A DNA stretch of 45,717 nucleotides from a virus. The notes under the pieces are model-generated. The model was not told where the DNA came from. It saw only the letters and a list, made by a program, of their open reading frames with translations, and did not search any database. Shown piece after piece: positions 3,419-45,705 of this stretch; within the stretch, counting starts at the first letter, position 1, and the number at the start of each line of letters is the position of its first letter. A program made the translations under genes and the position numbers. The DNA is taken from IMG/VR virus record IMGVR_UViG_3300005915_000035, positions 1 to 45,717 of that record; one strand, written 5' to 3'.

Positions 3419-3601
3419 ATGGAAGAAAACGAGAAAATACCACAAGAGATTTTAGACAATTGGGCAGACTGCCCAGTGACAGGTTGCCCTAATAAATGTT
3501 GTTTGCGTTTGAATAGTAAATATTGTTTTCCGCATACAATGAGCGGTAAGAGTTTAGAGGAAGTTATTGCCGAAAAGAAATGCTTGATTTTAACTAAATA
3601 A
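3419..3601 (+). CDS. Cysteine-rich 60-residue protein
   Basis: It has a good ribosome binding site (AAGGAG before the ATG). The centre holds a dense set of cysteines, CPVTGCPNKCC, followed by YCFPH, enough ligands for one or two zinc ions. No family is recognised; a small zinc-binding regulatory or DNA-contacting protein is the most natural guess. Confidence 0.6.
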   Translation: MEENEKIPQEILDNWADCPVTGCPNKCCLRLNSKYCFPHTMSGKSLEEVIAEKKCLILTK

Positions 3602-3635
3602 AATGGTATATTGAGATACAAGAATAGGAGATAAG

Positions 3636-4013
3636 ATGAGTGAGCCGTTATTACAAATTCCGTCTATGATTACAAAAATAACCACGATGAACAATAACTC
3701 TATAAGACTACAAGTTGACACGCAAGAGGAAGTGACAGACATTGCCACAGCTATGGTTTTCGGGTATAGAAACAAAGTTGGGGTGTTCGCATTCGCTAAG
3801 TCCGAGATTGATAAGTCTGAATTAGTTATCCCGAAATATAGACCATTAGAGGCTGAACAAAAAACGCCCTCACAACGGCTTAGGTCTGTGCTATACCGAT
3901 TATGGGAACAAGACGGTAAGAAGGATTTATTCGGTGTTGGGTGTGACTCTGACACTCATTATAAACAAATGATGGACAAGTTAACCAATTTTTATAAAGA
4001 GAAGTTAGACTAA
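3636..4013 (+). CDS. Conserved-looking phage protein of unknown function
   Basis: A 125-residue soluble protein with an AGGAG-type ribosome binding site. The N-terminal half looks beta-rich (IRLQVDTQEEV, then FGYRNKVGVFAFA); the second half is helical, with SQRLRSVLYRLWEQ and a C-terminal YKQMMDKLTNFYKEKL. The SQRLRxVLYxLWEQ pattern is familiar from phage early proteins that lie close to recombination genes, but no function is known to me. It is the last gene before a gene-free stretch of about 310 bases. Confidence 0.65.
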   Translation: MSEPLLQIPSMITKITTMNNNSIRLQVDTQEEVTDIATAMVFGYRNKVGVFAFAKSEIDKSELVIPKYRPLEAEQKTPSQRLRSVLYRLWEQDGKKDLFGVGCDSDTHYKQMMDKLTNFYKEKLD

Positions 4014-5406: not shown

Positions 5407-6273
5407 ATGGAGCAAACCACAAAAGATTCTGACTTATTCGGAAATGAAATAATAAAAAACCCACTATTGAGAGACAAATTTATAGAACCCCCGTTTAGTG
5501 TCTTAGACACCAAGTCTGGTAGTTGGCAGAATAGGAAGAGAGAGTGGGGTAAGTTAGGAATTAAGAGTGAGGTAGGTAGAGATTCAAAAGTCATAAATAT
5601 GGATACTACGGCAAAGAAAAACAATACCGCAGAGTATGTGTCAATTTTCGACCCATCATTGTGCGAGGTTTTGTATCATTGGTTCGTTCCTAATGGTGGT
5701 GGAATATTAGACCCGTTTGCTGGTGGTTCGGTCAGGGGCATAGTGGCGAATTATTTGGGCTTCGATTATACGGGAATAGATATAAGACAAGAGCAAATTG
5801 ATAGTAATAGGGACCAAGCGTCGGGAATTTTAGACGCCAACAATCAGCCCAACTGGTATGTGGGTGATTCTAATTTAATCCTAGATGACATTAACAAACA
5901 ATATGACTTTATCTTTAGCTGCCCACCCTACGCATATTTAGAAAAGTATAGTGACTTAGACGGTGATATATCGAATATGCCTTATGATAAATTCTTGGGG
6001 TCATATAAAAGCATAATTAAAAAAAGCTGTTCTTTGCTTAAGGTTGGTGGTTTTGCTTGTTTTGTTGTCGGGGAGGTCAGAAACAAAGATGGCAACTATA
6101 TTGGCTTCGTGCCAGACACAATTAAATCATTTGAGGAAGCCAACGTGAGATATTATAATGAGGCTGTCCTATTAAATGCAATAGCTAGTGCAAGTATGAG
6201 GGCTAATGGCAATATGAAAAGCAAAAAATTAGTCAAGACACACCAGAACATCTTAATATTTAAGAAATACTAA
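5407..6273 (+). CDS. Phage DNA methyltransferase (N4/N6-type)
   Basis: A 288-residue S-adenosylmethionine-dependent enzyme that would methylate adenine N6 or cytosine N4 in DNA. The cofactor-binding motif LDPFAGGSVRG is at about 101-111, the following strand YTGIDIRQEQ at 121-130, and the catalytic SCPPY (the D/N/SPPY motif) at 171-175. The later VVGEVRNKDGNY region and the HQNILIF ending are typical of phage members of this family. Motif order is cofactor first, catalytic second, unlike the second methyltransferase at 14401. It has its own promoter just upstream. Protection from host restriction is the usual role; the target site cannot be read. Confidence 0.85.
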   Translation: MEQTTKDSDLFGNEIIKNPLLRDKFIEPPFSVLDTKSGSWQNRKREWGKLGIKSEVGRDSKVINMDTTAKKNNTAEYVSIFDPSLCEVLYHWFVPNGGGILDPFAGGSVRGIVANYLGFDYTGIDIRQEQIDSNRDQASGILDANNQPNWYVGDSNLILDDINKQYDFIFSCPPYAYLEKYSDLDGDISNMPYDKFLGSYKSIIKKSCSLLKVGGFACFVVGEVRNKDGNYIGFVPDTIKSFEEANVRYYNEAVLLNAIASASMRANGNMKSKKLVKTHQNILIFKKY

Positions 6274-12241: not shown

Positions 12242-12652
12242 ATGAAGGTTTTTATAATATTAGTGTTACTGTGTAGTGGGTTGTTTGCACAAGCTGATTA
12301 TAATGCAGAGCAAAAGGAAGTAACAGTTGTAATATCGACTGATTCGGTAATAGTCGACTTATATACAGTATTTGGGGTTAAGGGAGTTGAAGAACTTAAA
12401 TTGTTAGGCGTTATGACGGATGCCACAATGACTTCAGACACTTTAACATTCAAGGTCTACGATGCTGTTAATGATGCTTATAAAACTATGGCAGTATTCA
12501 ATGGTGGATCTGATTTAACTTATACAATCGAAGCTAATAAAACATATCCACTAGATCCACGTTATTTTAACTCAGTTGATAGACTGGTGTTAAAGTTTGA
12601 TGCTAGTGAAGCTGCAGCACGATCAATTGTCTTAATCGGAAGAGTATTTTAG
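12242..12652 (+). CDS. Exported virion-family protein with signal peptide
   Basis: 136 residues from ATG 12242, which follows GAGGGA at a spacing of 7; an in-frame ATG at 12227 would spoil the signal. The start (MKVFIILVLLCSGLFAQ) is a clear Sec signal peptide with probable cleavage before the glutamine of AQ. The mature part (LTFKVYDAVNDAYKTM, then YPLDPRYFNSVDRLVLKF) resembles a common small phage beta-sandwich family found among structural genes, normally made without a signal peptide. A virion part made with an export signal next to the portal gene is odd. Confidence 0.7.
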   Translation: MKVFIILVLLCSGLFAQADYNAEQKEVTVVISTDSVIVDLYTVFGVKGVEELKLLGVMTDATMTSDTLTFKVYDAVNDAYKTMAVFNGGSDLTYTIEANKTYPLDPRYFNSVDRLVLKFDASEAAARSIVLIGRVF

Positions 12653-14121: not shown

Positions 14122-14404
14122 AGAATACTTCATAGAATCTACTGTATCGGGTACTTTCTCAGTCAATACCGAGGCTTCAATTAGAGGTATAATGAGACAG
14201 TTTATTATAAGCCCTTTAAGTGATGCTAATGAGTATAATCTTAACATTATAGATGATAACGACATGGATGTATTTTGTGAGAGTTCAATTACTGGACATT
14301 TCGCTCCAGAAGTTGCTATACCGATAAGAGGTGTCGTTACAGTCACGGTTTCAAGTTCTACATTAGATGAAAGCTTTACTATTAAAATGATGGTGGAAGA
14401 ATGA
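14108..14404 (+). CDS. Unknown 98-residue structural-region protein
   Basis: A beta-rich protein. Its two halves look alike: STVSGTFSVNTEASIRGIM and SSITGHFAPEVAIPIRGVV, suggesting an internal duplication of a domain of about 45 residues. It overlaps the portal gene by 14 bases and the methyltransferase by 4. No family is known to me. Confidence 0.6.
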   Translation: MIIHKEYFIESTVSGTFSVNTEASIRGIMRQFIISPLSDANEYNLNIIDDNDMDVFCESSITGHFAPEVAIPIRGVVTVTVSSSTLDESFTIKMMVEE

Positions 14405-15108
14405 TTAACCTAATACATGGTGATTGCCTTATTGAGATGCAAGGGATAGAGTCTGGAAGTGTAGACGTTGTTATTTGTGATCCTCCTTACGGAACAACAG
14501 CTTGTAAATGGGACTCAGTTATACCATTTGATTTAATGTGGGAACAATTAAATAGGATAATTAAACCTAACGGAGCAATAGTATTATTTGGGAGTGAACC
14601 TTTTAGTAGTGCTTTAAGAATGAGTAATATCAAGAATTATAAATATGATTGGATATGGAACAAGAAAAAGGGTGGCAACATATTTAATCTGAAACATTCA
14701 CCATATAAAACACATGAAATAATAAGTGTATTTAATAGTCATTCATATTATCCACAAATGACTAAAAGAGACAAGATAAAGAGATCAAAAAATTACGGAA
14801 CTGGTGAGGCATTCGGTGGAAATGGAGAAAAAGAGAGCAAGTTATATGAATATAAAGAAAGATACCCAATATCTATCCAAGAGTTTTCTAATGCTTCACA
14901 GAAAGGGAAAGTACACCCAACACAAAAACCAGTAGCCTTAATGGAATACTTAATTAAGACATATACGAACGAAAATGAAACTGTACTAGATTTCACAATG
15001 GGTAGTGGTTCTACAATGATAGCGTGTCAAAATACAGATAGAAATGGAATAGGCATTGAGCTTGATGATAATTATTTCGAGATAGCAAAAAAGAGAGTTG
15101 GACAATGA
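14401..15108 (+). CDS. Beta-class DNA methyltransferase
   Basis: A 235-residue N4/N6-type DNA methyltransferase with the motif order of the beta class: DPPYG at 27-31, a target-recognition stretch in the middle, HPTQKP at 172-177, and the cofactor loop VLDFTMGSGST at 195-205 followed by GIGIELD at 216-222. The cofactor loop has DFTMG where DPFxG is usual. It overlaps both neighbours by ATGA. It sits inside the head gene block, so it would be made late. Possible jobs are protection of progeny DNA from restriction or marking DNA for packaging. Confidence 0.88.
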   Translation: MINLIHGDCLIEMQGIESGSVDVVICDPPYGTTACKWDSVIPFDLMWEQLNRIIKPNGAIVLFGSEPFSSALRMSNIKNYKYDWIWNKKKGGNIFNLKHSPYKTHEIISVFNSHSYYPQMTKRDKIKRSKNYGTGEAFGGNGEKESKLYEYKERYPISIQEFSNASQKGKVHPTQKPVALMEYLIKTYTNENETVLDFTMGSGSTMIACQNTDRNGIGIELDDNYFEIAKKRVGQ

Positions 15109-21422: not shown

Positions 21423-23192
21423 ATGAGTCTATCAGTAGTCAAAGCAAGTGAATATGAAGATAATCAATTTTTAGTTAAAACAACTACTGATAGTGTAGAG
21501 GTATTTGAAGGAAAATATCTCAATCAAATAAATGTAGATGATTATGGTTTAACTGGAGATGGTGTAGTTGATGACACTACCCTTATGACAACAGCTTTAA
21601 CCGCTGCCGCCTCTTCGGGTGCTATCTTGAAAGGTGGAATTGGCAAGACTTATCTAGTTTCTATTATAACAATACCTAGTGGAGTTAAGGGGTTCGATTT
21701 TTCTGAGTCTACAATATTGAGTAGTGATGGTTCCACTCTGGGCGTTATCGTAGTTGACTCAGATGTTGAGGATTGTTTTGTCAAGGTTAATTTGAATATG
21801 GCTGGTGGTGATTATGTCGGTATATATAGTAACGGAGCCTCATATAATTACTACTTAGATTCTAACATATATGGATTTATTAATAGTGCTACATTAAATC
21901 ATTATGGTATTCTGTTGGGTGCTGGCTCAAATTATAATAAAATTTCTGGTAATACAATAACTGGTTATGACTCTCCGACCCAAAGAGGGTTATTGGTTGA
22001 TTTATTGGGTGAAGAAAGTGCTGATGGTTTCGGTGGTTTCTTTGATGGAGCTTTCGCTGACCCGATCACACCTTGCAAATATAATATAGTAACTGATAAT
22101 ATTTTAATAAATGGTAGCTATGCAATAAATATAATAGCCAGTGACCACAATATTATACAAGGCAATCAATGCGTAAATCAATCCCATAGAGGTGTATACA
22201 TAGCTGCTGGTTCTACATACAATATTATAAATGATAACCAGTTCCTAAGCTTTGGTAGTTCGGGTGTTTTGTTAGCTTATAATGCTTGGCATAATAAAAT
22301 ATCTTGTAATGTTATGAGAAATGTTTCTGGTGATCCCGTAGGTGGTGAAGCTGGTGTTAGTATTCAAACTGGTTCAAGCCATAATACTGTTTATGACAAT
22401 ATAATTGATGCTGGTACAAATTACGGAGTTTACATAGCTTGTGATACTAATTATAATATCGTTGATGCAAATAAAATAAAGAATTATTATTCATGTGCAA
22501 TCGCAATAGAAAATCATTGGGAAGATTCGCCTGATGCTGGTGCTCTATTTTCAAGACCTAATTACTCAGCACCCCCAGATGGAGAGGCTTGGTCACACAT
22601 GGATGTCGAAGGAAATGTAATAATAAACAACGTTATAGATGACCCTTATCCCGCAAGAAGTGGATGTGCAATTTATCTAGCACAATTAGCCAGTACGTAT
22701 AAAAATACAAAGCAAACTATAAATGGCAATATAATCAGAGGAACTATTGGAAGTCATTTTTTCTTATTTGAAGAGACAGCCGATTATTTAGATTCTTTAG
22801 TCGCAATAGGTAATACATTCGATGGTATAATTGTTGGGAAAATAAACATACCAAGAGATCACAATCATTTTAGGGTGTTAGAAAACAACGAATTTATAAA
22901 TGATTATTTAGAAGGCAAATCTGATTCATTCACTGCGGGTGATGCAACACCATCAGTTCTTGGGTGGGGTTATTATGCTTGTGCTAACTCCGCGGCAACA
23001 GATATTACAGATTTCGATGATGCAACCGAAGGGCAAGAAATCAAAATTAGGTTAGATCCTAATTCAACTATCAAATACGGTAGTGCGTTAATAAGACCCA
23101 AAGGGAATGCAGATGTAACAGGCAATAGTAATAATTTTGTTGTATTCAAAAGTATTTCTGGTGTTTGGTTTGAACAATATAGGAGTTTCTAA
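21423..23192 (+). CDS. Right-handed beta-helix protein (pectate-lyase-like)
   Basis: 589 residues. Residues 35-80 have the entry strand of pectate-lyase-3 type helices (VDDYGLTGDGVVDDTTLM). Then come many coils built around NxIxxN (GNTITG, DNILIN, GNQCVN, DNQFLS, DNIIDA, GNIIRG, NNEF), running to about residue 500, and a small C-terminal beta domain. Such proteins are usually tail spikes or depolymerases that bind or cut polysaccharide. This one lies between the capsid and connector genes rather than with the tail fibres. No signal peptide is present, unlike the helix protein at 32951, so this one can be a virion part. Confidence 0.75.
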   Translation: MSLSVVKASEYEDNQFLVKTTTDSVEVFEGKYLNQINVDDYGLTGDGVVDDTTLMTTALTAAASSGAILKGGIGKTYLVSIITIPSGVKGFDFSESTILSSDGSTLGVIVVDSDVEDCFVKVNLNMAGGDYVGIYSNGASYNYYLDSNIYGFINSATLNHYGILLGAGSNYNKISGNTITGYDSPTQRGLLVDLLGEESADGFGGFFDGAFADPITPCKYNIVTDNILINGSYAINIIASDHNIIQGNQCVNQSHRGVYIAAGSTYNIINDNQFLSFGSSGVLLAYNAWHNKISCNVMRNVSGDPVGGEAGVSIQTGSSHNTVYDNIIDAGTNYGVYIACDTNYNIVDANKIKNYYSCAIAIENHWEDSPDAGALFSRPNYSAPPDGEAWSHMDVEGNVIINNVIDDPYPARSGCAIYLAQLASTYKNTKQTINGNIIRGTIGSHFFLFEETADYLDSLVAIGNTFDGIIVGKINIPRDHNHFRVLENNEFINDYLEGKSDSFTAGDATPSVLGWGYYACANSAATDITDFDDATEGQEIKIRLDPNSTIKYGSALIRPKGNADVTGNSNNFVVFKSISGVWFEQYRSF

Positions 23193-29273: not shown

Positions 29274-30451
29274 TGGGCGATTTTTTATCTGAGAAAAAGA
29301 AAATAGATCAATTACGAAACGCTTATTTAAGATATAACTTTGGTGAAATTAAATATAATGCCGATTCTAAAGTTTATGCAAGCGTTAAAGGAATGCCTTT
29401 TAGACCTTGGATAGACTTAACTGGTAGAACTAACTCTTTTAATGAAGGTGACTTAATTGAAAACATAGTGTATCAAATTGAGTCAGTTATAAGAGATGTA
29501 ATTTTATGTGAATACGATTTAGAGGCTTCTGGATATAGTATAGGTTATATATCATTTAATAGTACACATGGGTTAATCTCTACAGCAGATAACTATTATA
29601 AAGATGCTTATTTAATAAATGTGACAAAGGGTTGGATTAAGAAAGTAGACTCTTATGTTGGGTCAACAAAGAGATGTAATATAAGCACAGTAGATACGGT
29701 TGATATAGGTTATACTGACAAACTTTATATGACTAATATTCAAGGTAATAATTTAATTGATACTGATTATTTCGATGCGTGTGCAACTATTAAAACAAAT
29801 TGGAAGGGTAGAATTAACCTAGATTCACAAATAGAAGCTTATACATTTTTAGACAATATAGCTTTTGAGGCTCAGTGTTCTCTATATAAAGCTTATGGTA
29901 AATATAGAATCATGCCAATCGAAACGGGGACAAGTGACGGTACTTTATCAAGTCCTTTAATAGAAAAAGGTGGGAATCTTTTATGTGATGCAGCCTTATC
30001 AGATGTTGACGATATATTTACAAGTTTTATAGTTAATTATAATTATCTACCTCAAGAAAATAAGTATTCTAAGACTTTGACTTGTAATAAAAATGAAACA
30101 AATAGTACCTCTTTAACTTCTTATAAAACTTACTGCGAAAACGCTGAAGTAAATTATAGAGTTTCAAGAGAATTAGAAATAGACTTAAATTTTATACATG
30201 ATGAAACAACGGCTTTAGCATTTATTCAAAGGATAATAAAAGAAAAGACTTTCCAAAGATTAGTAGTTGGATATATTGGTGATGTTAAAGACCATATAAA
30301 ATATGAAAAAGGTGACTTAGTTAAAATAAACGTACCTACAAGAATGCCAACAAGCAAGAATAATTCAGCACAATTTTTAATCACAAAACAAGACATTTCG
30401 TTTAAGGAAGGTTTGGGCGAAGTCACATTTAAGTTAGTGGAGATGATATGA
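29273..30451 (+). CDS. Tail hub / baseplate protein candidate
   Basis: 392 residues of mixed alpha/beta, with RAYIxFNNYGE-like N-terminal elements and a C-terminal part (YEKGDLVKINVPTR, then FKEGLGEVTFKLVEM) of the kind that ends tail-associated hub proteins. It has several cysteines (LCEYDL, RCNIS, ACATI). Its position next to the distal tail protein fits the hub that closes the tail tube and holds fibres. Confidence 0.55.
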   Translation: MGDFLSEKKKIDQLRNAYLRYNFGEIKYNADSKVYASVKGMPFRPWIDLTGRTNSFNEGDLIENIVYQIESVIRDVILCEYDLEASGYSIGYISFNSTHGLISTADNYYKDAYLINVTKGWIKKVDSYVGSTKRCNISTVDTVDIGYTDKLYMTNIQGNNLIDTDYFDACATIKTNWKGRINLDSQIEAYTFLDNIAFEAQCSLYKAYGKYRIMPIETGTSDGTLSSPLIEKGGNLLCDAALSDVDDIFTSFIVNYNYLPQENKYSKTLTCNKNETNSTSLTSYKTYCENAEVNYRVSRELEIDLNFIHDETTALAFIQRIIKEKTFQRLVVGYIGDVKDHIKYEKGDLVKINVPTRMPTSKNNSAQFLITKQDISFKEGLGEVTFKLVEMI

Positions 30452-30936
30452 GTTTGACTAAAAATCTATACCTTGTTAAAGGAGAATCAAAAAACTTTCC
30501 TTTACAAGCTTTTAACAATGCGGGTGGTGTTATAGATTTATCATCTGCTTTAATTACAATGACGGTGAAAGAGTCTACAACATCTACCGACACAGAATTT
30601 CAAAGAAAGAATGCTGCTGCTGGTGGAAGTACAACTGAAATAGAAGCTACTTCAGCAACTGATGGACTTTTCTTAGCTAAACTAACAAGAACCAATACAC
30701 TAAGTTTAGATGTACAAGCTTATTATTATGATGTAACAATAGACACTGGCTCAGATTATATATCTCACACGGGGTCTTTAATAGTACAGCAAAGTGTTAA
30801 TGATGGAAGCACAGTAACAAAAACTTATGGAACAACAGCAGAAAGACCAACTTTAGATACGTCTAATGTTGGGTTTATGTATTTTGATACGACAATAGGT
30901 TCTGCCATATGGTGGGACGGGAGCGCATGGGTATAA
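30448..30936 (+). CDS. Baseplate/fibre-linking protein (BppU-like N-terminus)
   Basis: 162 residues with an ATGA overlap. The first 110 residues are a beta-sandwich of the BppU-N type: YLVKGESKNFPLQAFNNAGGVIDLSSA and then YYYDVTIDTG. The end carries the pattern TTAERPTLDTSNVGFMYFDT, then SAIWWDGSAWV, a common phage module at the base of fibres. It has no signal peptide, so it should be a virion part of the distal tail. It is followed at once by the exported fibre gene. Confidence 0.65.
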   Translation: MSLTKNLYLVKGESKNFPLQAFNNAGGVIDLSSALITMTVKESTTSTDTEFQRKNAAAGGSTTEIEATSATDGLFLAKLTRTNTLSLDVQAYYYDVTIDTGSDYISHTGSLIVQQSVNDGSTVTKTYGTTAERPTLDTSNVGFMYFDTTIGSAIWWDGSAWV

Positions 30937-32951
30937 TGAAGAAACTTATTTTATTATTATTTATTTCAAGTTTAGCATACGGGCAGACATTAACTAAAAA
31001 TGCAAGAGTCGGGGATATAAACGATTCCTTGACAACTTTCACGGTTACGGTTAAAGCCCTAATATCTGATTCCTTGAGTGGTACTACTCTTGGTAATGCT
31101 GATTCTTTAGGTGGTTCGGTTGCATCTGATTATATGTTAAAGGCTGATTCTACTTTATATAATACTAAATATAATCATGATACTTTAGCTACTGACGTGG
31201 CAACCAATGTGACCAATATAGCAACAAATACAAGTGGTGTCTCAGATAATGCGGATTCTGTAACAGCAATAAGAACTAACGTGAATACAAATACTGCGGG
31301 TATTTTATTGAGATCGACTTTAGCAAGTCCTACTTTTACTGGCACAGTTGTTATACCAACTCTAAATGTTACAACAGCTTTCCAATTATCGGGGGTGGCT
31401 TTAACTGCTTCAATGGCTGAATTGAATTATGTAGACGGTGTAACAAGTGCAATCCAAACTCAGATTAACTTAAAAGCCTTGAATGCAAATCCAACATTTA
31501 CGGGTGAAATTGGTATAGGTTCTGTTAATGTTTCTGAAACTGAATTGGGTATTTTAGAGAGTGCGACTTTATCTACAACTGAATTAAACTATGTTGATGG
31601 TGTTACTTCTGCAATTCAAACACAAATAAATTCAATAACTTCTGGTACGACTTCTGCCTTAACAGATGGATATATCTATATAGGTAATGTTTCAAACGAA
31701 CCAGCCATGAAAGCTATTACTGGTGATATTGCAACAACTAGAGAAGGTGTTACTTCTATAAGTTCTGGTGTTATACTAGATGCTGATATAAATGCAAGTG
31801 CTGGAATTACAGCGACTAAATTAGCTGGTGGCGGTGTTAATAATACAGAGTTCGGATATATAGGTACTTTATCATCAAACGCACAAACACAATTAACAGC
31901 AAATGCTGGTGGTATTGCAACTAATTTAAGTAGTATTTCAGACATAGGAGATACCAATACAGCTCAAAGAACTGACATAAATACTAATGTAGCTGGTTTA
32001 GTTTCAACTGTTTCAAGTACCTCAACTAATACAAGCAATATATCTGGACTAACGACTTTAGCTAATGGTAAAATTTATATGGGCAATGGGTCAAATGTCG
32101 CTGCTGAAGTTACACCAAGTGGTGATGTGACAATGACAAATGCTGGTGTTAATTCTATCACTGCGGGGTCTATTATAAATGCAGATATAAACGCTTCAGC
32201 AGCTATTAGTGCCACTAAGTTAATTGATGGTGAAATTACAGACACAGAATTAGGATATATAAATACATTAAGTTCAAACGCTCAGACTCAAATAACAACT
32301 AATATATCAGATATAGATGCCTTAGAGACTTTGGCTAACGCTAAATTTTATCTAGGTAATGGATCTAATGTAGCAACCGAAGTAACTTTAACTGGTGATG
32401 TTACATCTACAAATGCGGGTGTTATGGCTATAGCTTCTGGAGTGATTGTCGATGCTGATGTTAATGCTTCTGCAAATATTACAGCAACTAAATTGGGAAC
32501 TGGTGTTATATCTAATACTGAACTTAATTATCTAAATGGTACTACTAGTGCGATTCAAACTCAGATAGATGGTATAGTAGTCTCAGACACAATTAAAGCT
32601 CGTGGTGGGTCTTATTCATTTATTATTAGTGCCCCTCAATCAAGCGAGGAAATACCTTTAGGACGTAGAAAATACGCCTATACAGTTGATTCTGTGACTG
32701 CGGTTAATATAACATCTAGTACGACTAATGAAGTACCTTTTAATATGGTATTTAATGCAAGCGCTTTATTTGCCTCAGATCAAACAGTAGATACATATTC
32801 ACCATTGGCTATAAATGTTACTACATGGGATTTATATACTTCGTTTTCTGATGCCACAATAACGGCTGGTGAATTTGCTCATATTGAATTAGGTACAATA
32901 ACGGGAACACCTTTATATACTGAATTTACAGTATTTTATACGGAGAATTGA
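30936..32951 (+). CDS. Exported repeat-containing fibre-like protein
   Basis: 671 residues from ATG 30936, which shares one base with the previous stop; in-frame ATGs at 30909 and 30927 would add residues in front of the signal. The start (MKKLILLLFISSLAYGQ) is a Sec signal peptide. The body has modules YxGNxSN-GD-DADINASA-ATKL-TELxY in three copies (31667-32575) and three copies of ELNY..GxTSAIQTQI, with many N, T, S and A residues, as in trimeric fibres. The last 110 residues form a beta domain. It looks like a tail fibre, yet the signal would send it out of the cytoplasm where tails assemble. Confidence 0.7.
   Translation: MKKLILLLFISSLAYGQTLTKNARVGDINDSLTTFTVTVKALISDSLSGTTLGNADSLGGSVASDYMLKADSTLYNTKYNHDTLATDVATNVTNIATNTSGVSDNADSVTAIRTNVNTNTAGILLRSTLASPTFTGTVVIPTLNVTTAFQLSGVALTASMAELNYVDGVTSAIQTQINLKALNANPTFTGEIGIGSVNVSETELGILESATLSTTELNYVDGVTSAIQTQINSITSGTTSALTDGYIYIGNVSNEPAMKAITGDIATTREGVTSISSGVILDADINASAGITATKLAGGGVNNTEFGYIGTLSSNAQTQLTANAGGIATNLSSISDIGDTNTAQRTDINTNVAGLVSTVSSTSTNTSNISGLTTLANGKIYMGNGSNVAAEVTPSGDVTMTNAGVNSITAGSIINADINASAAISATKLIDGEITDTELGYINTLSSNAQTQITTNISDIDALETLANAKFYLGNGSNVATEVTLTGDVTSTNAGVMAIASGVIVDADVNASANITATKLGTGVISNTELNYLNGTTSAIQTQIDGIVVSDTIKARGGSYSFIISAPQSSEEIPLGRRKYAYTVDSVTAVNITSSTTNEVPFNMVFNASALFASDQTVDTYSPLAINVTTWDLYTSFSDATITAGEFAHIELGTITGTPLYTEFTVFYTEN
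31667..32575 (+). repeat. Three internal repeats of the fibre-like protein
   Basis: Repeat units begin near 31667, 32068 and 32341. Each reads YxGNxSN, then GD, then a block with the pattern D-A/N-DINASA-I-ATKL, then TELGY or TELNY followed by about 10 residues ending with QTQ. The protein is similar but codons differ, so the duplications are old and held by selection. Confidence 0.75.
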
Positions 32952-35854
32952 TGAAAAGTATAATTATACTTTTATTTTTATGTGTTAATTTATTAGCACA
33001 AGATATAATACTCATAGGCAATCCACCTACATTAGTTGGTGCTGATAAAGACTTAGGTAATATAGCGGTCGGTACTACACACGCTGATTCTATGACCCTA
33101 AGCGTTGTTGGTCGGTCTGTAACAATAGATTCGATTAAGAGCGACTTGACATCTCTTTCATTAAGTGGTGATTCTGTTATTACTTATTATGATAGTCAAA
33201 ATTTACGTTTTACAGCAGATATTAGCACACTTGGTTCTATAGATAAAGACCTAATAATATACAGTAGTTCTTCCGATGGGGTTGATACAGTAAATGTAAC
33301 TGGTGAAGTAGTGACCCAAATCCTATTAGCACCTACAAGCTTAATTGCAACCGCTCAAACTGGTGGTATAAATTTAATGTGGACTGATTCAAACCCCACT
33401 ACAGACACATCTTTAGCACAAAGATACTTAGATTCTACATGGACTATTGAATCCAATTCTACTAATGCAACATTCACAAATATTTCCGATAATAAATATA
33501 AATTATTAGATGCTGCTGGTTGCACTTATGGTTATCCTTCTTATTATAGAGACTTTACACTAGATTCTGCTAAATGGTATGCGTGGGAAGTAGACATAGA
33601 ACCATCGGGTAGTTTTAATGCTTACTTAGTTTTTAGAGATGCGGTGGAAGATACTCTTATGAGTCAAAAATATTCAGCTACAACAACAACTCTCAAAGAT
33701 ACAATAACTGACTTTGGTGGTACGGTAAGGGTTTATTTGCAAATCCTTGGTGATACTAACGATGACAGATACGCTTATTTCAGTAATATGAACTTTAAGT
33801 ATTCAGCACCAAGTTATGATTCTGTGCTAGTTCAAGCTAGAGAATATGCAAGTGATTTAGCGGGAACGTGGACACCTTCAGCTTTTGGAACAATAAATAC
33901 AACAGCGAACACCAATCCATCTTATGCTCACGATTTAACATCCTATACAGATACAGCAATGTTCGATTATCGTGTGAAATTCAAAAATGATGGTGTTTCT
34001 ACAGCCTATTCTAATATAGCAATAGATACTTTTATTGTATCAACACCTAGTGGAAATATAAATTTTGCTGATTATTATCTAGTTTCTGGTAGTACATCAA
34101 CATGGGCTCTTGGTGCTGCGGATTCAGCCCTTGGTGTTTGTTCAGATACTTTAGAGGCTCATGTGGCTGATATAGGTACTGGCAAGACTATTTCAGTTAA
34201 AGACACCAATATTGGTTCATTGATATTAGACGGTGTTGGTGGTAGGTTAAATAATTTAACACTACAAAGCTACTATACTGATACTAATGGAGTTATAACC
34301 TTATATGACACTTTAAGGGGTTCTGGTGCTACGGCTAATTGGGTCGATAAGGGTGATAGTTCTTATCAATTCCAATTTACTACTGCTGGGTGGTCTGATT
34401 CTACTTTCGGAATACATAAACTTTGGCTTGACGATAAAGAATATCAAGAAGCAATTAAACCATCATTAACTGGCTATACTACTTATGGGATAGAAGATTC
34501 TGCATGGGCTAGTTATGGAGATAGTGTAAGATGGTTGGGTATGTGGGGTGAAAGTATTGGGGCTGATTCTGGTAATAGTTTTAACCAATTAAGGCTTAAA
34601 GTCTGGACTCCAGACGGTACAAACCCAGCGAGTTATTATACTTCTATTAAACAAGCGGTTGTAGACCCGTCCCGTGGCGTTGGTTTAACTAATAGTAGTT
34701 ATGCTTGTAAATTAGAAAATATTGACAACCTAACTGTTGAGGGGTTAACTTTCGATGGTGGTGATTACGTAACATTAGAGATAATGAATTGTGATAATTT
34801 CACAATAGATGACAATCTTGTAAGAAAGGTTCATACAAATGGTATAAGAGCAATCAACTCTGAGAAGGGGTCTATAACAGACAATGTAGTTGAGGGCTTT
34901 ACTGGCATAGCTGGTGATAATGTTTGGTATGAATACATGGATGCACAGCAAGGCATAGATGTAGCATGGGAATCTGATTCTATAACTGTGAGAGGGAATA
35001 CAGTAAGAGATATGACAAGTTATGGCATAAGAGCTATAGGACGTGATGGGGTTGGACACGGCACACCAGATTATTGTATAATAGATTCAAACGACATACT
35101 TAATACTGAAGGGTTAAAATATTTTAGAGGAATTGGCTCTATTGGTTTAACTACAGTAGCACAACCAGAAGGTGTTATAATTACTAGAAATTTAGTTGAT
35201 GGGCAAACAGTAGGTTCTTATATAGGCTCAAAAGATTTAACCGTTGCTTTTAATGTTATGGAAGGTGCTGATCTAACAACTTCTGTAGTAATTGATCACA
35301 AAGAAGTGAAAACATCCAATGATGGATATGCTTTTGAAGCTCTTTATGCATTAGGTGAAGGTATAACTTATTTATTTAATAACACATTTTATAATATGCC
35401 TTATTATTTAATTAAACTCTATACCAATGGCATAAATACATCGCTTATTTTGAATAATTTAATGGTTAATAATAATAGGTTGCGATCTTCTAGTGATATA
35501 GATTTATCAATTGAGTCACGGTCTGGTGAATATGTTTGGGTTAAAAATAATCTAAGTTGGAATGATAATTCGCTAGACTCTAATGCTTATTATGTTACAA
35601 GTGGATTATACTATTCATGGGCTAATTTCAATATAGCAGAATTAGGAAGTGACGTATTTAGCGGAAACGCTTATTCGGGAGAATCTACTATTGGTGCGGT
35701 CTTAGATGTTTCGAATTATGAGGCTAAAACAAATGACGCCATTGGTCAAGGTACTCCCACAACATCTTACTTACCAAGTTGGTTAACAAAAGACAGAAGC
35801 GGTAACACCATTACTGGAACTGGTGATAATATTGGAGCAATAAACAATGATTAA
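32951..35854 (+). CDS. Exported beta-helix spike-like protein
   Basis: 967 residues from ATG 32951 (TGATG with the previous gene); in-frame TTG 32948 is less likely. The first 17 residues (MKSIIILLFLCVNLLAQ) are a signal peptide. Residues about 20-120 form an Ig-like domain of the kind with VxxxDKDLGNIAVGTT, followed by a fibronectin-like region (LAPTSLIATAQTGGINLMW) and, from about 550 to 900, right-handed beta-helix coils (NLTVEGLTFDGGDYV, NFTIDDNLVRKVHTNG, SITVRGNTVRDMTSYG). Such proteins bind or cut polysaccharide. No catalytic site can be named. It overlaps the deacetylase by 8 bases. No T9SS sorting tail is visible. Confidence 0.72.
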   Translation: MKSIIILLFLCVNLLAQDIILIGNPPTLVGADKDLGNIAVGTTHADSMTLSVVGRSVTIDSIKSDLTSLSLSGDSVITYYDSQNLRFTADISTLGSIDKDLIIYSSSSDGVDTVNVTGEVVTQILLAPTSLIATAQTGGINLMWTDSNPTTDTSLAQRYLDSTWTIESNSTNATFTNISDNKYKLLDAAGCTYGYPSYYRDFTLDSAKWYAWEVDIEPSGSFNAYLVFRDAVEDTLMSQKYSATTTTLKDTITDFGGTVRVYLQILGDTNDDRYAYFSNMNFKYSAPSYDSVLVQAREYASDLAGTWTPSAFGTINTTANTNPSYAHDLTSYTDTAMFDYRVKFKNDGVSTAYSNIAIDTFIVSTPSGNINFADYYLVSGSTSTWALGAADSALGVCSDTLEAHVADIGTGKTISVKDTNIGSLILDGVGGRLNNLTLQSYYTDTNGVITLYDTLRGSGATANWVDKGDSSYQFQFTTAGWSDSTFGIHKLWLDDKEYQEAIKPSLTGYTTYGIEDSAWASYGDSVRWLGMWGESIGADSGNSFNQLRLKVWTPDGTNPASYYTSIKQAVVDPSRGVGLTNSSYACKLENIDNLTVEGLTFDGGDYVTLEIMNCDNFTIDDNLVRKVHTNGIRAINSEKGSITDNVVEGFTGIAGDNVWYEYMDAQQGIDVAWESDSITVRGNTVRDMTSYGIRAIGRDGVGHGTPDYCIIDSNDILNTEGLKYFRGIGSIGLTTVAQPEGVIITRNLVDGQTVGSYIGSKDLTVAFNVMEGADLTTSVVIDHKEVKTSNDGYAFEALYALGEGITYLFNNTFYNMPYYLIKLYTNGINTSLILNNLMVNNNRLRSSSDIDLSIESRSGEYVWVKNNLSWNDNSLDSNAYYVTSGLYYSWANFNIAELGSDVFSGNAYSGESTIGAVLDVSNYEAKTNDAIGQGTPTTSYLPSWLTKDRSGNTITGTGDNIGAINND

Positions 35855-37139
35855 AAAGATAATAATAATAACGCTATTAACATTTGTTTCTATAAATGCA
35901 CAGAGTCAGTTATTAACTATGTTTGCGGGTGGTGGAAAAGAAACTGCTACGCCAACAACATATACACAACTTGGCGAAGGTGTCCTAATTGAGGGGTTTG
36001 AGAATATCGCTGATTGGACACTTTCTAACCTACACGCTGGGACGACTACGGCATCAACGGCAAGCACAACAACGCAAGGCGATTCATCTTTAAGGGTAGC
36101 AGTTACCGAAGGACGGGGGTATGCTATTAAGTCTTTGGGCAATGTTGATTTAAGTTCTTATGAATCGTTCACTATTGATGTGTATAACCCAGACTCTTTA
36201 TTGACACTAAGAATTGGTTTCGCTTTATCTGATGACGACCCATTTAATACCGAAGATGGTGTTGACCCAGCAATAGGCAACCGCATGAACAAAGGATGGA
36301 ACAGATATGCTTTTTCAAAAGCTGACTTTACACCCTCTATCGATTGGAGCACAGTGAAAAGCATGAGGGTTAGATGTTCAAATTTTGCTAGATCTGCGAC
36401 TAATATAACTTATGATAATTTTAGAGGGTACAATCCAAAGCAAAAAGCAGTTTGTTTGTTAACATTTGATGACAATTATATATCCGTAGATACTATCGCT
36501 GCACCAATTATGGATTCTTTGGGTATTGTTGGGACAATATTTACGATTGGGCGATATGCAAACGGTACTATTGGTTCACCAAGTTATTTACAATACGCAG
36601 AGCTAGATGAGAGGTATGCTTCAGGTTGGGATATTGCTAATCATGGGTACACATCTGTTAATTGGACAACATTAAGCATCCCAGCCATGATAGCAGATAT
36701 TGAAGATAATAGGGACACTTTGATCGCACATGGTTATACAAGGAGTTCTGATTTCGCAGCTTACCCCAATGGTGCTTTTAATAGGGATATTTTAGACCAA
36801 ATAAAAATTAATCACAAAATGGGTAGGTCGGTAAGAACGCAAATGTCTGAAGGACACCCGATAGATGCAGATGACGATTACTTTTTACTTAACACTATTG
36901 ACGGTAATACTGGTGGTAATTTAGCTACGCTTGAAGGATATGTTGATGCTCAAATTGCGAGTGGTGGTGTGATTATTTTTATGTTCCATGAACTAGAGAG
37001 TTATTCGGGCAAGTTTAATTCTTTAATGATTTATATATCTGAAAAGCAAGACGCTGGGGGTATCACTATCATGCCGATAAGCGAATATTACAATAGTTTG
37101 CAATCCACATTTGGTGATGATATAATTACAGTGGAGTGA
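35847..37139 (+). CDS. Exported polysaccharide deacetylase (NodB-like)
   Basis: 430 residues. Residues 1-18 (MIKKIIIITLLTFVSINA) are a signal peptide. Residues 45-195 are a jelly-roll carbohydrate-binding-like domain. The NodB domain (about 200-425) has LLTFDD at 204-209, with D208 as catalytic base and D209 as metal ligand, ANHGYTS at 264-270, AAYPNGAFN at 304-312, and FMFHE with H381. In the second motif only H266 is present; the second His expected four residues later is a serine (S270), so metal binding may be altered. Related enzymes remove N- or O-acetyl groups from extracellular polysaccharide. Together with the two exported genes before it, it could strip or modify host capsule. Confidence 0.8.
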   Translation: MIKKIIIITLLTFVSINAQSQLLTMFAGGGKETATPTTYTQLGEGVLIEGFENIADWTLSNLHAGTTTASTASTTTQGDSSLRVAVTEGRGYAIKSLGNVDLSSYESFTIDVYNPDSLLTLRIGFALSDDDPFNTEDGVDPAIGNRMNKGWNRYAFSKADFTPSIDWSTVKSMRVRCSNFARSATNITYDNFRGYNPKQKAVCLLTFDDNYISVDTIAAPIMDSLGIVGTIFTIGRYANGTIGSPSYLQYAELDERYASGWDIANHGYTSVNWTTLSIPAMIADIEDNRDTLIAHGYTRSSDFAAYPNGAFNRDILDQIKINHKMGRSVRTQMSEGHPIDADDDYFLLNTIDGNTGGNLATLEGYVDAQIASGGVIIFMFHELESYSGKFNSLMIYISEKQDAGGITIMPISEYYNSLQSTFGDDIITVE

Positions 37140-37179: not shown

Positions 37180-37298
37180 GGAAGTTATTGTATGGAAGAA
37201 TTAAAATGTCCAGAACTACCGACACTTAAACGTATTGAAGAGAAAGTTAATTAGGCAAGTATTATGAACCCCAATGATAGGAAGATTATTGTATGGAA
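37180..37298 (+). repeat. Duplicated start-region sequence
   Basis: GGAAGTTATTGTATGGAA (37180-37197) and GGAAGATTATTGTATGGAA (37280-37298) differ by one inserted base. Both contain a ribosome binding site and an ATG. The second copy starts the 37293 gene and the first starts the 20-residue frame at 37192, suggesting a small tandem duplication or gene decay. Confidence 0.6.
37192..37254 (+). CDS. Possible 20-residue peptide
   Basis: A short frame with the same leader as the next gene (GGAAG and ATGGAA). The peptide MEELKCPELPTLKRIEEKVN is charged. It lies in the 150-base gap after the deacetylase. It may be the leftover of a partial duplication. Confidence 0.35.
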   Translation: MEELKCPELPTLKRIEEKVN

Positions 37299-37610
37299 TT
37301 TATATCGGAACATCCAGAAGTAGCATTTTTAATAATAGGAGTTATGGTGGCACTGTTAGGTTTCTTTTTCAGATCAGAACACAAAGATTTACGTGACACA
37401 ATGGATTCAGTTGAAAGAGTGAAATCTAATTATCTCGACAGATTCGAGGCACTCCACGCTGATAACAACGAGAAACATATTGAATTGTTGGGTGTAATAA
37501 ATCCATTAGCAGTTGATTTGTCTTCAATCAGAGCAGAAATGAGTATGATAAAAGAAGATGTTTCAAAGCAAAAAGATTATTGTGCTAGTGTGCAATTAAA
37601 CAAGAAATGA
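37293..37610 (+). CDS. Membrane-anchored coiled-coil protein
   Basis: 105 residues. A single membrane segment at about 9-27 (VAFLIIGVMVALLGFFF) is followed by a long helix with heptad character (LRDTMDSVERVKSNYLDRFEAL, then MSMIKEDVSKQK). It starts the lysis block and lies before the holin candidate. It could be a holin accessory or antiholin, but it shows no known family signature. Confidence 0.55.
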   Translation: MEFISEHPEVAFLIIGVMVALLGFFFRSEHKDLRDTMDSVERVKSNYLDRFEALHADNNEKHIELLGVINPLAVDLSSIRAEMSMIKEDVSKQKDYCASVQLNKK

Positions 37611-37620
37611 AAGGAATAAG

Positions 37621-37842
37621 ATGGAATTAAGAGGCAAGAGAAAGTTTATAGCATTTTTAGTAACTATTGGAATGTTCTTCTTTTTAATGGGTGGAGTTAT
37701 CTTGTCTATGACGACTTTCGATAATTCAACACTAACTGGACTAGGTATCTTTTCTGGTGCTTTAGGTGGTGCTTTAATGGCTATCTCTGGAGCTTTTTAC
37801 GCTGGTAATGCAGTAGTACATAAGAAATCTAATGACTCTTAA
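37621..37842 (+). CDS. Holin candidate
   Basis: 73 residues with an AGGAAT start context. Two membrane-spanning segments: about 10-30 (AFLVTIGMFFFLMGGVILSM) and about 40-62 (GLGIFSGALGGALMAISGAFYAG), with a short loop between and charged ends (KRKF and HKKS). Two-pass proteins of this size beside a spanin candidate and an endolysin are typical class II holins, which open the inner membrane at the time of lysis. It overlaps the next gene by 11 bases. Confidence 0.6.
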   Translation: MELRGKRKFIAFLVTIGMFFFLMGGVILSMTTFDNSTLTGLGIFSGALGGALMAISGAFYAGNAVVHKKSNDS

Positions 37843-38314
37843 ATATATATTCTATATAATAATATTTGCTTCATGTGTGGGCTTCGGTTGGTTCTTAAAT
37901 GAGAACTTAACGGATAAAGAAATAAAAATATCTTATGGTGATATTACCGTTGAGCAAATTAAGACATCTTATAAACCTTTAGCACCTATTATTGTGTTTG
38001 ATAATAAGACTGTTTTAATTGAGAACATAATACAAGACGGTATTGAATATAAAATGTTAACTGATTCTCTCAGTAGCTATTCAGACTCATTAAACTATAA
38101 GATTATCCATAGCACTTTATTAGACCCAGACTCAATTGAAGCTAAAACTTTCTGGAATGTATTTATTGAAATGACGGCTAGACAAGACTCTATATTCTTA
38201 GACAGAGAAGTAATTAAATTGCAAGAAGTTCCAAGTCCATTCTATAAAAATCATTGGTTTTATGCTTGGTTAGGTACTTTGGGTGGTCTGATATTGTTCA
38301 TATTTGGTGGGTAA
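37832..38314 (+). CDS. Spanin candidate (u-spanin-like topology)
   Basis: 160 residues. The N-terminus is hydrophobic and ends with FASC, cysteine at residue 15, a possible though weak lipobox; if processed, the protein would be a lipoprotein. The middle has the length and beta/coil content of a periplasm-crossing segment with S/D/N-rich stretches. The C-terminus has a clear membrane segment (YAWLGTLGGLILFIFGG). Lipoprotein at one end and membrane helix at the other is the layout of unimolecular spanins, which fuse inner and outer membranes. Alternatively it is a double-anchored membrane protein. Confidence 0.5.
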   Translation: MTLKYIFYIIIFASCVGFGWFLNENLTDKEIKISYGDITVEQIKTSYKPLAPIIVFDNKTVLIENIIQDGIEYKMLTDSLSSYSDSLNYKIIHSTLLDPDSIEAKTFWNVFIEMTARQDSIFLDREVIKLQEVPSPFYKNHWFYAWLGTLGGLILFIFGG

Positions 38315-38320
38315 TATCTA

Positions 38321-38349
38321 ACATTAAGTCACAATTATATACTTAATGT
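38321..38349 (+). promoter_or_regulatory. Inverted repeat after the spanin gene
   Basis: ACATTAAGT at 38321-38329 and ACTTAATGT at 38341-38349 form a perfect 9-base inverted repeat around an 11-base spacer; a second possible pairing (GTCACA with TGTGAC) overlaps it. No T-run follows. It could be a protein-binding site or an mRNA end structure. Confidence 0.45.
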
Positions 38350-38372
38350 GTGACAAAACCAACCAAATTTAT

Positions 38373-38400
38373 TCCTATTATTAGAAAAATAGGACAATTT
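38373..38400 (+). terminator. Weak terminator-like hairpin
   Basis: TCCTATT at 38373-38379 pairs with AATAGGA at 38388-38394 and a T-rich stretch starts five bases later. The stem is AT-rich. It may end some of the late transcripts before the endolysin gene. Confidence 0.4.
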
Positions 38401-38466
38401 TTGGTGTTATATTGGAAAATTAAGACAAAATATTCAACAAACGTGGTTATAGTAGAAAATTGAACA

Positions 38467-38515
38467 TGGTTCTAATCCAAGGCATTAGTTTAATTTGAGC
38501 CTTGTAAATGAACCA
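38467..38515 (+). promoter_or_regulatory. Nested hairpin upstream of the endolysin gene
   Basis: TGGTTC (38467-38472) pairs with GAACCA (38510-38515), and inside CAAGGC (38478-38483) pairs with GCCTTG (38499-38504). The 5-base spacers on both sides have equal length, so the two helices could stack. It lies 32 bases before the endolysin ATG, so it may tune endolysin expression. The remaining part of this 232-base gap shows no gene. Confidence 0.45.
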
Positions 38516-38546
38516 ATAGTATATCTTACTCAATGAAAATAAACTA

Positions 38547-38951
38547 ATGAATATATTAAAAGAAATTTGGGAACGTCTTAATATCGAACACTTTGCTATT
38601 GAGGAAGTGACTTTAGGACGTTCTATCCCAGAAGCTAAACTTGTTAATATAGAAGAAACAATTAAATTTGCAGACGCTATGAGAGAGTCAGTAGGCTTTC
38701 CCATAGTAATTACCTCATCTTACCGTAATCCTAGCTTAAACGAGTCCGTAGGCGGTTCATCTACCTCTTTACACTTACAATTCAATGCGTTAGACTTAGT
38801 ACCGATGTCTGGCAAGAAAGAAGACTTAGTAGAAATGAGAAAGTTTGTTAATAAGAATAGAACTAGACTTATGGGCGTTGGATTCTACGATTCGTTCATT
38901 CATCTGGACTTTAGGGGTCTTTTATGCAGACCTTCACCTAAAACTTGGTAA
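38547..38951 (+). CDS. Endolysin, M15-family peptidase
   Basis: 134 residues with the single catalytic domain of M15 peptidases (VanY/L-alanyl-D-glutamate type), which cut peptide stems of peptidoglycan. ITSSYRNPSLN at about 55-65 and STSLHLQFNALD at 72-83 give ligands H76 and D83, and FIHLDFRG at 117-124 gives H119. The usual G after the first His is replaced here (SLHLQFNALD). No signal peptide, so release needs the holin. It follows the holin and spanin candidates, completing the lysis block. Confidence 0.83.
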   Translation: MNILKEIWERLNIEHFAIEEVTLGRSIPEAKLVNIEETIKFADAMRESVGFPIVITSSYRNPSLNESVGGSSTSLHLQFNALDLVPMSGKKEDLVEMRKFVNKNRTRLMGVGFYDSFIHLDFRGLLCRPSPKTW

Positions 38952-38960
38952 AAATAGTTC

Positions 38961-38991
38961 TTGACATTAACCCAAAGTTTTTGTAATATAG
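38961..38991 (+). promoter_or_regulatory. Promoter, TTGACA-N17-TAATATAG
   Basis: TTGACA at 38961-38966 is followed after 17 bases by TAATATAG at 38984-38991. The second box fits a sigma-70 -10 better than the TAnnTTTG form. It opens the membrane-glycosyltransferase cassette and separates it from lysis genes. Confidence 0.7.
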
Positions 38992-39011: not shown

Positions 39012-39719
39012 GTGAATAAACCAGCTAGAGTTATATCTATAATTTTTATCATTCTATTAGCCTTTATTCTGAGAGATCAAAAACATGGCTATTGGGTAGA
39101 TGAATATTTCCCTTTCAACTATGTTAATTATTACATGGAACATGGGATAGTAGAAGGGATTGAGCAATACAATGGTAAAGAAGCCCTTGCAACTATCATA
39201 TCTGTATCTTTAGGCTTAGACACACCAGAAAAAATAAGAGGCTTATACAAGGTTTGTGGGCTTTTATTAGTCGCATTAGTTCCTTTAATATTTAGAGAAT
39301 GGCAGAAATATTTACCGCTAATGTTAATCTTTGCTTGTTCTCCACTACTAATTTATTGGTCTTGTTTTGCTAGACCTTATATAGTTGCTGCTATGTTTGT
39401 TCTATTAGCTTGGAAATACCCACCCTTTATAATACTTGCTGTCTTAACTAATCCGTTGGCAATAGTAGGTATCAATTTATTTAAGGTAAAACAATGGTGG
39501 TTATTCTATCTAATATTATTTATAGGTGCTATTGGGTTTTTCTTAATTCAGCCTTTACCTCATAGTGGTTTGTTTAATTCTGATTTTTTAATGAATGCTA
39601 GGAGAATTTATGTTATTCCGTTCGTTGTTGCTTGTTTGTATATTTATACTATCCCTAACATTTGGCTACAAAGGGTACAACTTTATGCAGTCGGATTGGT
39701 CAAACACACCCGATCTTGA
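39012..39719 (+). CDS. GT-C glycosyltransferase-like membrane protein
   Basis: 235 residues with about five to seven membrane segments. After the first segment comes YWVDEYFPFN, whose acidic pair in the first outer loop is the catalytic hallmark of GT-C enzymes such as PMT and ArnT. Later WSCFARPYIVAAMFVLLAW matches the ARPY motif found in bacterial members. Known enzymes transfer sugars from lipid carriers on the outer face of the membrane. At 235 residues it is half the usual size, so it may be truncated or minimal. It could change host surface sugars and block other phages. The start is GTG 39012. Confidence 0.65.
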   Translation: MNKPARVISIIFIILLAFILRDQKHGYWVDEYFPFNYVNYYMEHGIVEGIEQYNGKEALATIISVSLGLDTPEKIRGLYKVCGLLLVALVPLIFREWQKYLPLMLIFACSPLLIYWSCFARPYIVAAMFVLLAWKYPPFIILAVLTNPLAIVGINLFKVKQWWLFYLILFIGAIGFFLIQPLPHSGLFNSDFLMNARRIYVIPFVVACLYIYTIPNIWLQRVQLYAVGLVKHTRS

Positions 39720-40023
39720 CTATGTAACTAATACTGTACCAGCTAATTATTACGGTGCTAGTGGTAAATTTTACAGAGAGATGACATTAAAACCACCTTT
39801 TTATTCTATCGGGAATCAGTATTTAATACCAGAAGAAGTTAGGGTAATATTGGCAAAGGGTGATACAGTCAAAATTGGTGTTGACTATTACGGGTCTTTG
39901 GGTGTTTCAAGACGACTTATACCACCTCTTGTCATGCAATCAATAGACTATAAGAATGGTGAAGTTGGATATTTTAATGTTTACGTTAAAAATAATTTAA
40001 TATATTGGGGGGAAATGCAATGA
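39610..40023 (+). CDS. Membrane-anchored protein of the glycosyltransferase cassette
   Basis: 137 residues from ATG 39610, six bases after AGGAG, lying inside the glycosyltransferase gene in another frame (overlap 110 bases); ATG 39595 is also in frame. One N-terminal membrane segment (LLLVCIFILSLTFGY) is followed by a soluble region of unknown kind. The strong internal ribosome binding site argues for a separate gene; a frameshifted half of a longer enzyme is the alternative. It ends by overlapping the 32-residue peptide gene. Confidence 0.6.
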   Translation: MLFRSLLLVCIFILSLTFGYKGYNFMQSDWSNTPDLDYVTNTVPANYYGASGKFYREMTLKPPFYSIGNQYLIPEEVRVILAKGDTVKIGVDYYGSLGVSRRLIPPLVMQSIDYKNGEVGYFNVYVKNNLIYWGEMQ

Positions 40024-40118
40024 TAAGAATAGTAAAATACTTAAAATCATTAGTTAGATCATTAGTTAAATCATTTAGAGAAAATAGCTTCATGCACAAG
40101 TATAAAAACTTGCTATAA
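40020..40118 (+). CDS. Cationic amphipathic peptide (32 aa)
   Basis: Starts with an ATGA overlap and GGGGGGAAA upstream. The peptide begins MIRIVKYLKSLVRSLVKSF, with lysines and arginines every three or four residues and leucine/valine between, which gives a basic amphipathic helix. The central part comes from a 12-base tandem repeat (TCATTAGTTARA). It may lie on the membrane surface. Function unknown. Confidence 0.5.
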   Translation: MIRIVKYLKSLVRSLVKSFRENSFMHKYKNLL

Positions 40119-40127
40119 AAATAACAC

Positions 40128-40158
40128 TTGACATTACCACATATTTTAATTACCTTTG
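40128..40158 (+). promoter_or_regulatory. Promoter, TTGACA-N17-TACCTTTG
   Basis: TTGACA at 40128-40133 and TACCTTTG at 40151-40158 are exactly 17 bases apart; the downstream box is a full match to the Bacteroidota TAnnTTTG. The transcript would run into the terminator at 40220-40246 after about 80 bases. Confidence 0.8.
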
Positions 40159-41355: not shown

Positions 41356-41395
41356 TATCCCCACAAAACTATTTTCGCATTTCGGAAGATTTCTC

Positions 41396-41426
41396 TTGAC
41401 ATTGCCATAATCTATACATACCTTTG
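41396..41426 (+). promoter_or_regulatory. Promoter, TTGACA-N17-TACCTTTG
   Basis: TTGACA at 41396-41401, 17 bases, then TACCTTTG at 41419-41426, identical in both boxes to the site at 40128. It starts the early operon of small genes and recombination genes, with transcription beginning about 41433. Confidence 0.82.
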
Positions 41427-45454: not shown

Positions 45455-45646
45455 ATGAGTAAGGACAAGATAATCAGACCAGGACAATATAGACCTAATA
45501 TTGATACAATTTGGGAGGTTAAGCAAATCAAAGTCGGCAGTTTCGATATAAAATTAGTCGCAGATAGTAACGTTCCGAGAGATGAAATTTGGTTTGTTGA
45601 TGAAGACAGTTATATAAAAAGATTCAAAGTGATACCAACGCCATAA
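45455..45646 (+). CDS. Unknown 63-residue protein
   Basis: Starts with AGGAGCAATATCAAATG context. A beta-rich small protein (FDIKLVADSNVPRDEIWFVDEDSYIK). Last gene of the early operon before the final promoter. No family recognised. Confidence 0.55.
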   Translation: MSKDKIIRPGQYRPNIDTIWEVKQIKVGSFDIKLVADSNVPRDEIWFVDEDSYIKRFKVIPTP

Positions 45647-45654
45647 AATAACAC

Positions 45655-45705
45655 TTGACAAAACAACATAATTTAATTACATTGAACTGTCAATAATTAC
45701 TTGAC
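45655..45705 (+). promoter_or_regulatory. Promoter, TTGACA-N17-TACATTGA, with inverted repeat at start point
   Basis: TTGACA at 45655-45660, 17 bases, then TACATTGA at 45678-45685. The boxes and flanks resemble the 40128 site (both have ATAACACTTGACA). A short inverted repeat GTCAA/TTGAC (45689-45693 and 45701-45705) lies at the expected start point and could be an operator. It would read out of the window, or into the start of the window if the DNA is circular. Confidence 0.65.

Follow-up and report, generated by a model that had tools for sequence, protein, structure and literature searches.

Tail-type fibre, beta-helix and deacetylase genes with predicted Q-rule signal peptides in a tailed phage record, very probably encoding an exported set

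We analyzed the complete IMG/VR virus record IMGVR_UViG_3300005915_000035 (45,717 bases, hereafter the window), whose gene layout is that of an ordinary tailed phage and which has three overlapping genes on the plus strand, each with a predicted N-terminal Sec signal peptide. They encode a tail-fibre-like protein of 671 aa with three repeat modules (30936..32951, signal peptide 30936-30983), a beta-helix protein of 967 aa (32951..35854, signal peptide 32951-32998) and a predicted exported deacetylase of 430 aa (35847..37139, signal peptide 35847-35900), with Gln at position +1 in all three. The run follows an adaptor gene (30448..30936, plus strand) and directly precedes a lysis module (37293..38951, plus strand). 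The tight joining of the three genes described in the sequence-only reading is seen at each junction: the start at 30936 shares a TAATG overlap with the stop of the adaptor gene, the start at 32951 lies in a TGATG overlap with a Shine-Dalgarno sequence GGAG, and the start at 35847 lies in an 8-base overlap with GGAG upstream. No excess of terminators or promoters is observed inside the run.

Signal peptides were called with a rule-based detector, which also flags membrane proteins of the lysis region. Exactly four signal peptides with Gln following the cleavage site were identified in the window, namely, those of the three-gene run, as claimed earlier, and one that the earlier claim had not listed, in a 136-aa head-module protein encoded directly before the portal-position gene (12242..12652, plus strand, signal peptide 12242-12289). 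The predicted cleavage sites are MKKLILLLFISSLAYG^QTLTK, MKSIIILLFLCVNLLA^QDIIL and MIKKIIIITLLTFVSINA^QSQLL in the run, and MKVFIILVLLCSGLFA^QADYN in the head-module protein. Of the signal peptide ends proposed in the sequence-only reading (GQ, AQ and NA), the first two lie one residue too far downstream, as Gln is the +1 residue. All four signals have a short n-region, a hydrophobic core and an Ala/Gly-Gln cleavage site. Among random N-termini of the window amino-acid composition, 0.18% pass the rule and 0.0075% (7.5 per 100,000) pass with Gln at +1, while the rule is satisfied by 22 of 8,714 internal segments, in no case with Gln. As Gln is found at +1 in four sites out of four against this chance rate, the four predicted signals are genuine features of the sequence, and they point to a Bacteroidota-type host. 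This agrees with the Q-rule, by which Gln becomes the first residue of most signal peptidase I (SPase I) substrates in Bacteroidetes and is later cyclised (PMC5837995; PMC10653852); Gln at +1 averages about 71% in Bacteroidetes, although Ignavibacterium album shows the same habit, with a similarly high Q-value of 77% (PMC5837995).

Neither the 12242-12652 product nor the portal-position protein has a phage match, and the former has no confident family; its single-sequence structure model was poor (pLDDT, predicted local distance difference test, of 47) and was set aside. A small Q-rule gene lies among head and tail genes (3360-3824) in L065 as well, one of the virus loci described below.

The three repeat modules of the fibre-like protein are visible on reading its translation, as noted before. 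They match the tail fibre of the Prochlorococcus cyanophage P-RSP2 (E 9e-12) and are 68% identical, over 47 aa, to a signal-peptide fibre from locus L055. No virion-attachment domain was found at the N-terminus in Pfam, NCBIfam or PHROG, the signal peptide standing first, and a YadA-type C-terminal barrel has no Pfam match. The beta-helix assignment of the 967-residue protein stands, with Pfam Beta_helix above the cut-off (E 8e-7) and the tail spike family phrog_7458 (E 3e-8); no sequence match was found for this protein among phage or PDB sequences. The adaptor, previously called a baseplate-linking gene without a signal, indeed has no signal peptide by the same detector. Its product (162 aa) is of virion type, ends in a C-terminal tag GFMYFDTT...WWDGSAWV, and matches profiles of the virion structural protein phrog_20787 (E 3e-10) and of phrog_1084 (E 2.5e-7).

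Sorting-domain models of the type IX secretion system (T9SS) and anchor models gave no match in NCBIfam or Pfam, and the readings of these proteins as T9SS cargo or autotransporters were rejected, the respective C-terminal domains being absent. The alternative offered in the sequence-only reading, membrane-tethered adhesins, is thus the weaker one, as SPase I substrates that are cleaved typically have Gln at +1, no lipobox Cys is present at the cleavage sites, and none of these models is matched.

The third protein is of the NodB type, as had been proposed: it matches Pfam PF01522 (Polysacc_deac_1) with E 5e-16 and 59.1 bits versus the cut-off of 23.1. Structure prediction, suggested in the sequence-only reading and run on this protein, yielded a two-domain fold (pLDDT 66.8, predicted template modelling score 0.68), with a sandwich resembling a carbohydrate-binding module (CBM) at about 35976-36434 and a carbohydrate esterase family 4 (CE4)/NodB domain at about 36435-37121. 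CE4 folds are among the top PDB matches of the model, and the best one by Foldseek is 8QPG, the turret of HFTV1 (E 1e-18, 400 columns); the profile of the HFTV1 turret head also matches, from residue 50 onward (E 1e-12). Of the CE4/NodB active-site set (TFDD, H(S/T)xxH, YPxG and a final His), D208, D209, H266, P307 (YPNG) and H381 are conserved in the alignment, while motif 2, HGYTS, has Ser for the second His.

HFTV1 gp31 (8QPG) is a virion protein whose N-terminal stalk is inserted in the turret base protein, and it has been proposed to bind and deacetylate a surface glycan (PMC12494034). The window protein resembles it in having CBM-like (galactose-binding-like) and deacetylase-like domains in the same order over the 400 collinear columns, but a signal peptide and a linker of about 25 residues stand in place of the insertion part, and the second His of the gp31 motif 2, NHGYNH, is missing. 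The same C-terminal CBM-NodB module, 21-26% identical, is carried by minor tail proteins of Gordonia phages, by gp673 of Bacillus phage G and by BppU-NodB proteins, and the window module aligns collinearly with the C-terminal ends of tail proteins from these and other phages; unlike the window protein, they lack signal peptides and mostly have a tail-attachment N-terminus. An alignment-guided scan of IMG/VR found the module in eight phage loci, where none of the eight genes has a signal peptide and most have an N-terminal tail part before the module. CBM-NodB proteins occur on haloarchaeal plasmids as well, and a genome scan yielded a single, irrelevant match, an Omnitrophota NodB.

Comparable gene sets were identified in other virus contigs with the DNA pattern TAATG-MKK-hydrophobic-AlaGln, the loci being taken from the IMG/VR matches listed, of which 120 were sampled. 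As the pattern requires Ala-Gln, only gene identity and position count as evidence here. In locus L101, a signal-peptide protein of 1071 aa aligns to tail-fibre family profiles (E 1e-32) without their first part, the matches beginning only at about position 402-440; it has a SASA acetylesterase domain, and an endolysin comes next. In L055, a signal-peptide fibre is followed by a signal-peptide SASA esterase, the preceding genes being tail or baseplate ones by reading only. The order in L114 is a signal-peptide LamG lectin, a signal-peptide GDSL esterase, a membrane protein and a peptidase-like gene, and in L065 and L046 fibre-like genes with signal peptides were seen at similar positions, by reading only. 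Esterases of three families (CE4, SASA and GDSL) at similar positions point to a putative shared task, de-acetylation.

Among the matches listed, tandem Q-rule genes are present in 22 of the 120 sampled loci. Two Q-rule genes, not in tandem, were seen across 17 records of reference phages (522 kb). In seven Bacteroidota reference phages, signal-like N-termini belong mostly to spanins, holins and spurious open reading frames (ORFs); the match in Hankyphage was rejected as a likely holin, and the sole Q-rule fibre-like gene is AIX11853 of Flavobacterium phage FCL-2 (148 aa, L035:45363-45806). A recurrent Q-rule triplet of about 550, 765-870 and 298 aa was also seen in L045, L093, L097, L098, L124 and L140, some of these contigs being 40-250 kb long; its last gene in L093 reads like an outer-membrane barrel. 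In Pelagibacter phage HTVC023P (L002:23391-25466), gp45 and gp46 are consecutive signal-peptide genes just past the capsid genes, not of the Q type.

The remaining genes follow the usual order, with terminase at 7626, the portal-position gene at 12661, the major capsid protein at 19977 (distant matches), the tape measure at 26581, two tail proteins at 27963 and 29273, and, towards the window end, genes for recombination of the ERF and YqaJ-like kinds. A second beta-helix protein, tail-spike-like (589 aa, 21423..23192, plus strand), matches the tail spike family phrog_2234 (E 1.5e-9), phrog_14558 (E 2e-8) and Pfam Beta_helix; it was not flagged by the signal peptide detector and is a candidate for the ordinary virion spike of the same phage. 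The lysis module comprises, on the plus strand, two small membrane proteins (37293 and 37621) and a protein with two transmembrane segments (37832-38314), all three called from hydrophobic segments only, and an M15 endolysin (38547-38951; phrog_894, E 9e-19; Pfam Peptidase_M15_3, E 9e-18). DNA methyltransferase-like genes lie at 5407-6273 and 14401-15108, the latter inserted in the head module. A multi-transmembrane protein at 39012-40023 is similar to the beginning of a mannosyltransferase of the GT-C type, and a second ORF (39595), hydrophobic at its N-terminus, overlaps it. These may represent a surface-glycan-modifying gene, or a single frameshifted gene. Four related promoter-like repeats of the form TTGACA-N17-TACCTTTG or similar precede rightward genes (38951-38989, 40118-40156, 41386-41424 and 45645-45683), and their TACCTTTG element weakly fits a Bacteroidota-type host; the count of TAnnTTTG promoters across the whole window shows no significant enrichment. 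IMG/VR scans with exact peptide words of the deacetylase, the tail protein at 29273, the terminase, the fibre and the adaptor, one at a time, found no relatives, and that with the endolysin gave eight loci, those inspected being high-GC and unrelated.

Export of the three-gene set is well supported by these sequence features: very probably, the proteins leave the cytoplasm via the host Sec translocase and SPase I and do not form an ordinary tail-fibre set. The central proposal of the sequence-only reading, an exported set, is supported by the NodB protein lacking the virion-insertion part of its relatives, and by the comparable fibre-plus-esterase sets elsewhere. As to the role, we lean, with slightly better than even confidence, towards a late-made, host-exported set of adhesins and a deacetylase that edits the envelope glycan against re-adsorption and superinfection. 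From here on we infer the timing, the crossing of the outer membrane, the substrate and the benefit. Late expression is probable because the run follows the adaptor gene and precedes the lysis genes. Tail-type receptor-interacting modules would be re-addressed to the cell envelope: after late synthesis the host Sec translocase would export them, and signal peptidase I would cut before Gln, to be cyclised to pyroglutamate, so that all three mature proteins would reach the periplasm or the cell exterior. There, surface glycan may be bound by the fibre and the beta-helix protein and deacetylated by the CE4 enzyme, which would change the receptor of the phage itself or the capsule. Editing of the infected-cell glycan is suggested because three acetyl-removing families pair with fibres or lectins. 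The benefit could be that superinfection by sister phages is barred and that progeny are not trapped on debris or spent cells, as with a receptor-destroying enzyme.

Several observations weigh against the glycan-editing role. The slot directly after the adaptor gene is the usual place of the real fibres of a phage, and in the tail region of L101 there is no large fibre other than the one with the signal peptide. Deacetylase activity is uncertain, as motif 2 of the predicted enzyme lacks the second His zinc ligand. No T9SS sorting-domain or autotransporter model that would mark a route across the outer membrane was matched; the Q-rule, which points to a Bacteroidota-type host, suits Ignavibacterium album too; and the loci collected with the Ala-Gln pattern are no independent test of the Q-rule and may in part be host DNA.

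The main rival explanation takes the proteins for real adhesins, Sec-exported and loaded on virions only at lysis by docking to the signal-free adaptor at 30448-30936. We regard it as unlikely, and we know of no tailed-phage precedent for exported fibres loading on virions. The adaptor-fibre-spike-enzyme order does look like an adsorption module, the sole large fibre of L101 speaks for it, and in HFTV1 the CBM-deacetylase is a separate virion protein on a base protein (PMC12494034); against this, the phage already has a signal-free spike candidate (21423-23192), and the signal peptide of the window enzyme stands where an insertion stalk of the HFTV1 type would be.

It is still more doubtful that the three genes are accessory morons encoding host-type surface proteins, with a role not in the phage cycle but in host biology, concerning biofilm or nutrients. 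Lambda Lom is a classical exported accessory protein, the signal peptides are host-like, and CBM-NodB proteins on haloarchaeal plasmids also fit such an origin; yet the fibre repeats are of the phage tail-fibre type, the run overlaps with tail genes, and reading of the ORFs, without a profile search throughout, revealed neither an integrase nor a repressor. A moron origin by composition was rejected, as the GC content of the genes matches that of the phage, with no outlier. Finally, the N-termini could be hydrophobic anchors that stay uncleaved and serve virion assembly or oligomerisation. Some phage structural proteins are called as having signal peptides, while their cleavage is attributed to the prohead protease, as stated for capsid proteins of Porphyromonas phages (PMC10367356). 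We find this very improbable, given the n-region, core and Ala/Gly-Gln site in all four proteins, far above chance, and given that in the NodB protein the signal replaces the virion-binding part rather than preceding it.

A broader generalization, to which we give somewhat less than an even chance, is that tailed phages of Q-rule hosts of the Bacteroidota type may share a recurrent export module, in which a fibre or lectin and a CE4, SASA or GDSL enzyme have swapped virion attachment for a Sec signal, acting in receptor destruction at the cell surface or, in a stronger version, loading on virions outside the cell. Fibre and spike genes are normally read as virion adhesins in host-range prediction; were a class of them exported instead, many such annotations in Bacteroidota phages would need revision, and the surface of the infected cell would be open to editing by the phage while infection proceeds. 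The set also bears on a possible receptor-destroying step ahead of phage release, such as some animal viruses have.

Q-rule proteins in Porphyromonas phages and virion CE4 modules are already known, whereas the tail-type cargo and the recurrent fibre-plus-esterase pairing look new; no paper on tail fibres with signal peptides or on this pairing was found in open-access literature. T5 Llp, Cor and lambda Lom are exported envelope proteins of superinfection exclusion, small lipoproteins or barrels; like the set proposed here they are phage-encoded, exported and act at the cell surface, but none is a tail-type adhesin with a carbohydrate esterase. Phages of Porphyromonas gingivalis (Nixviridae) carry five Q-rule genes without an assigned function (PMC10367356; PMC10653852). 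Their products, similar to those of the window, follow the Q-rule for Sec and SPase I, whereas the cargo in the window is identifiable, being a fibre, a beta-helix protein and a predicted CE4 deacetylase in a run of tail genes.
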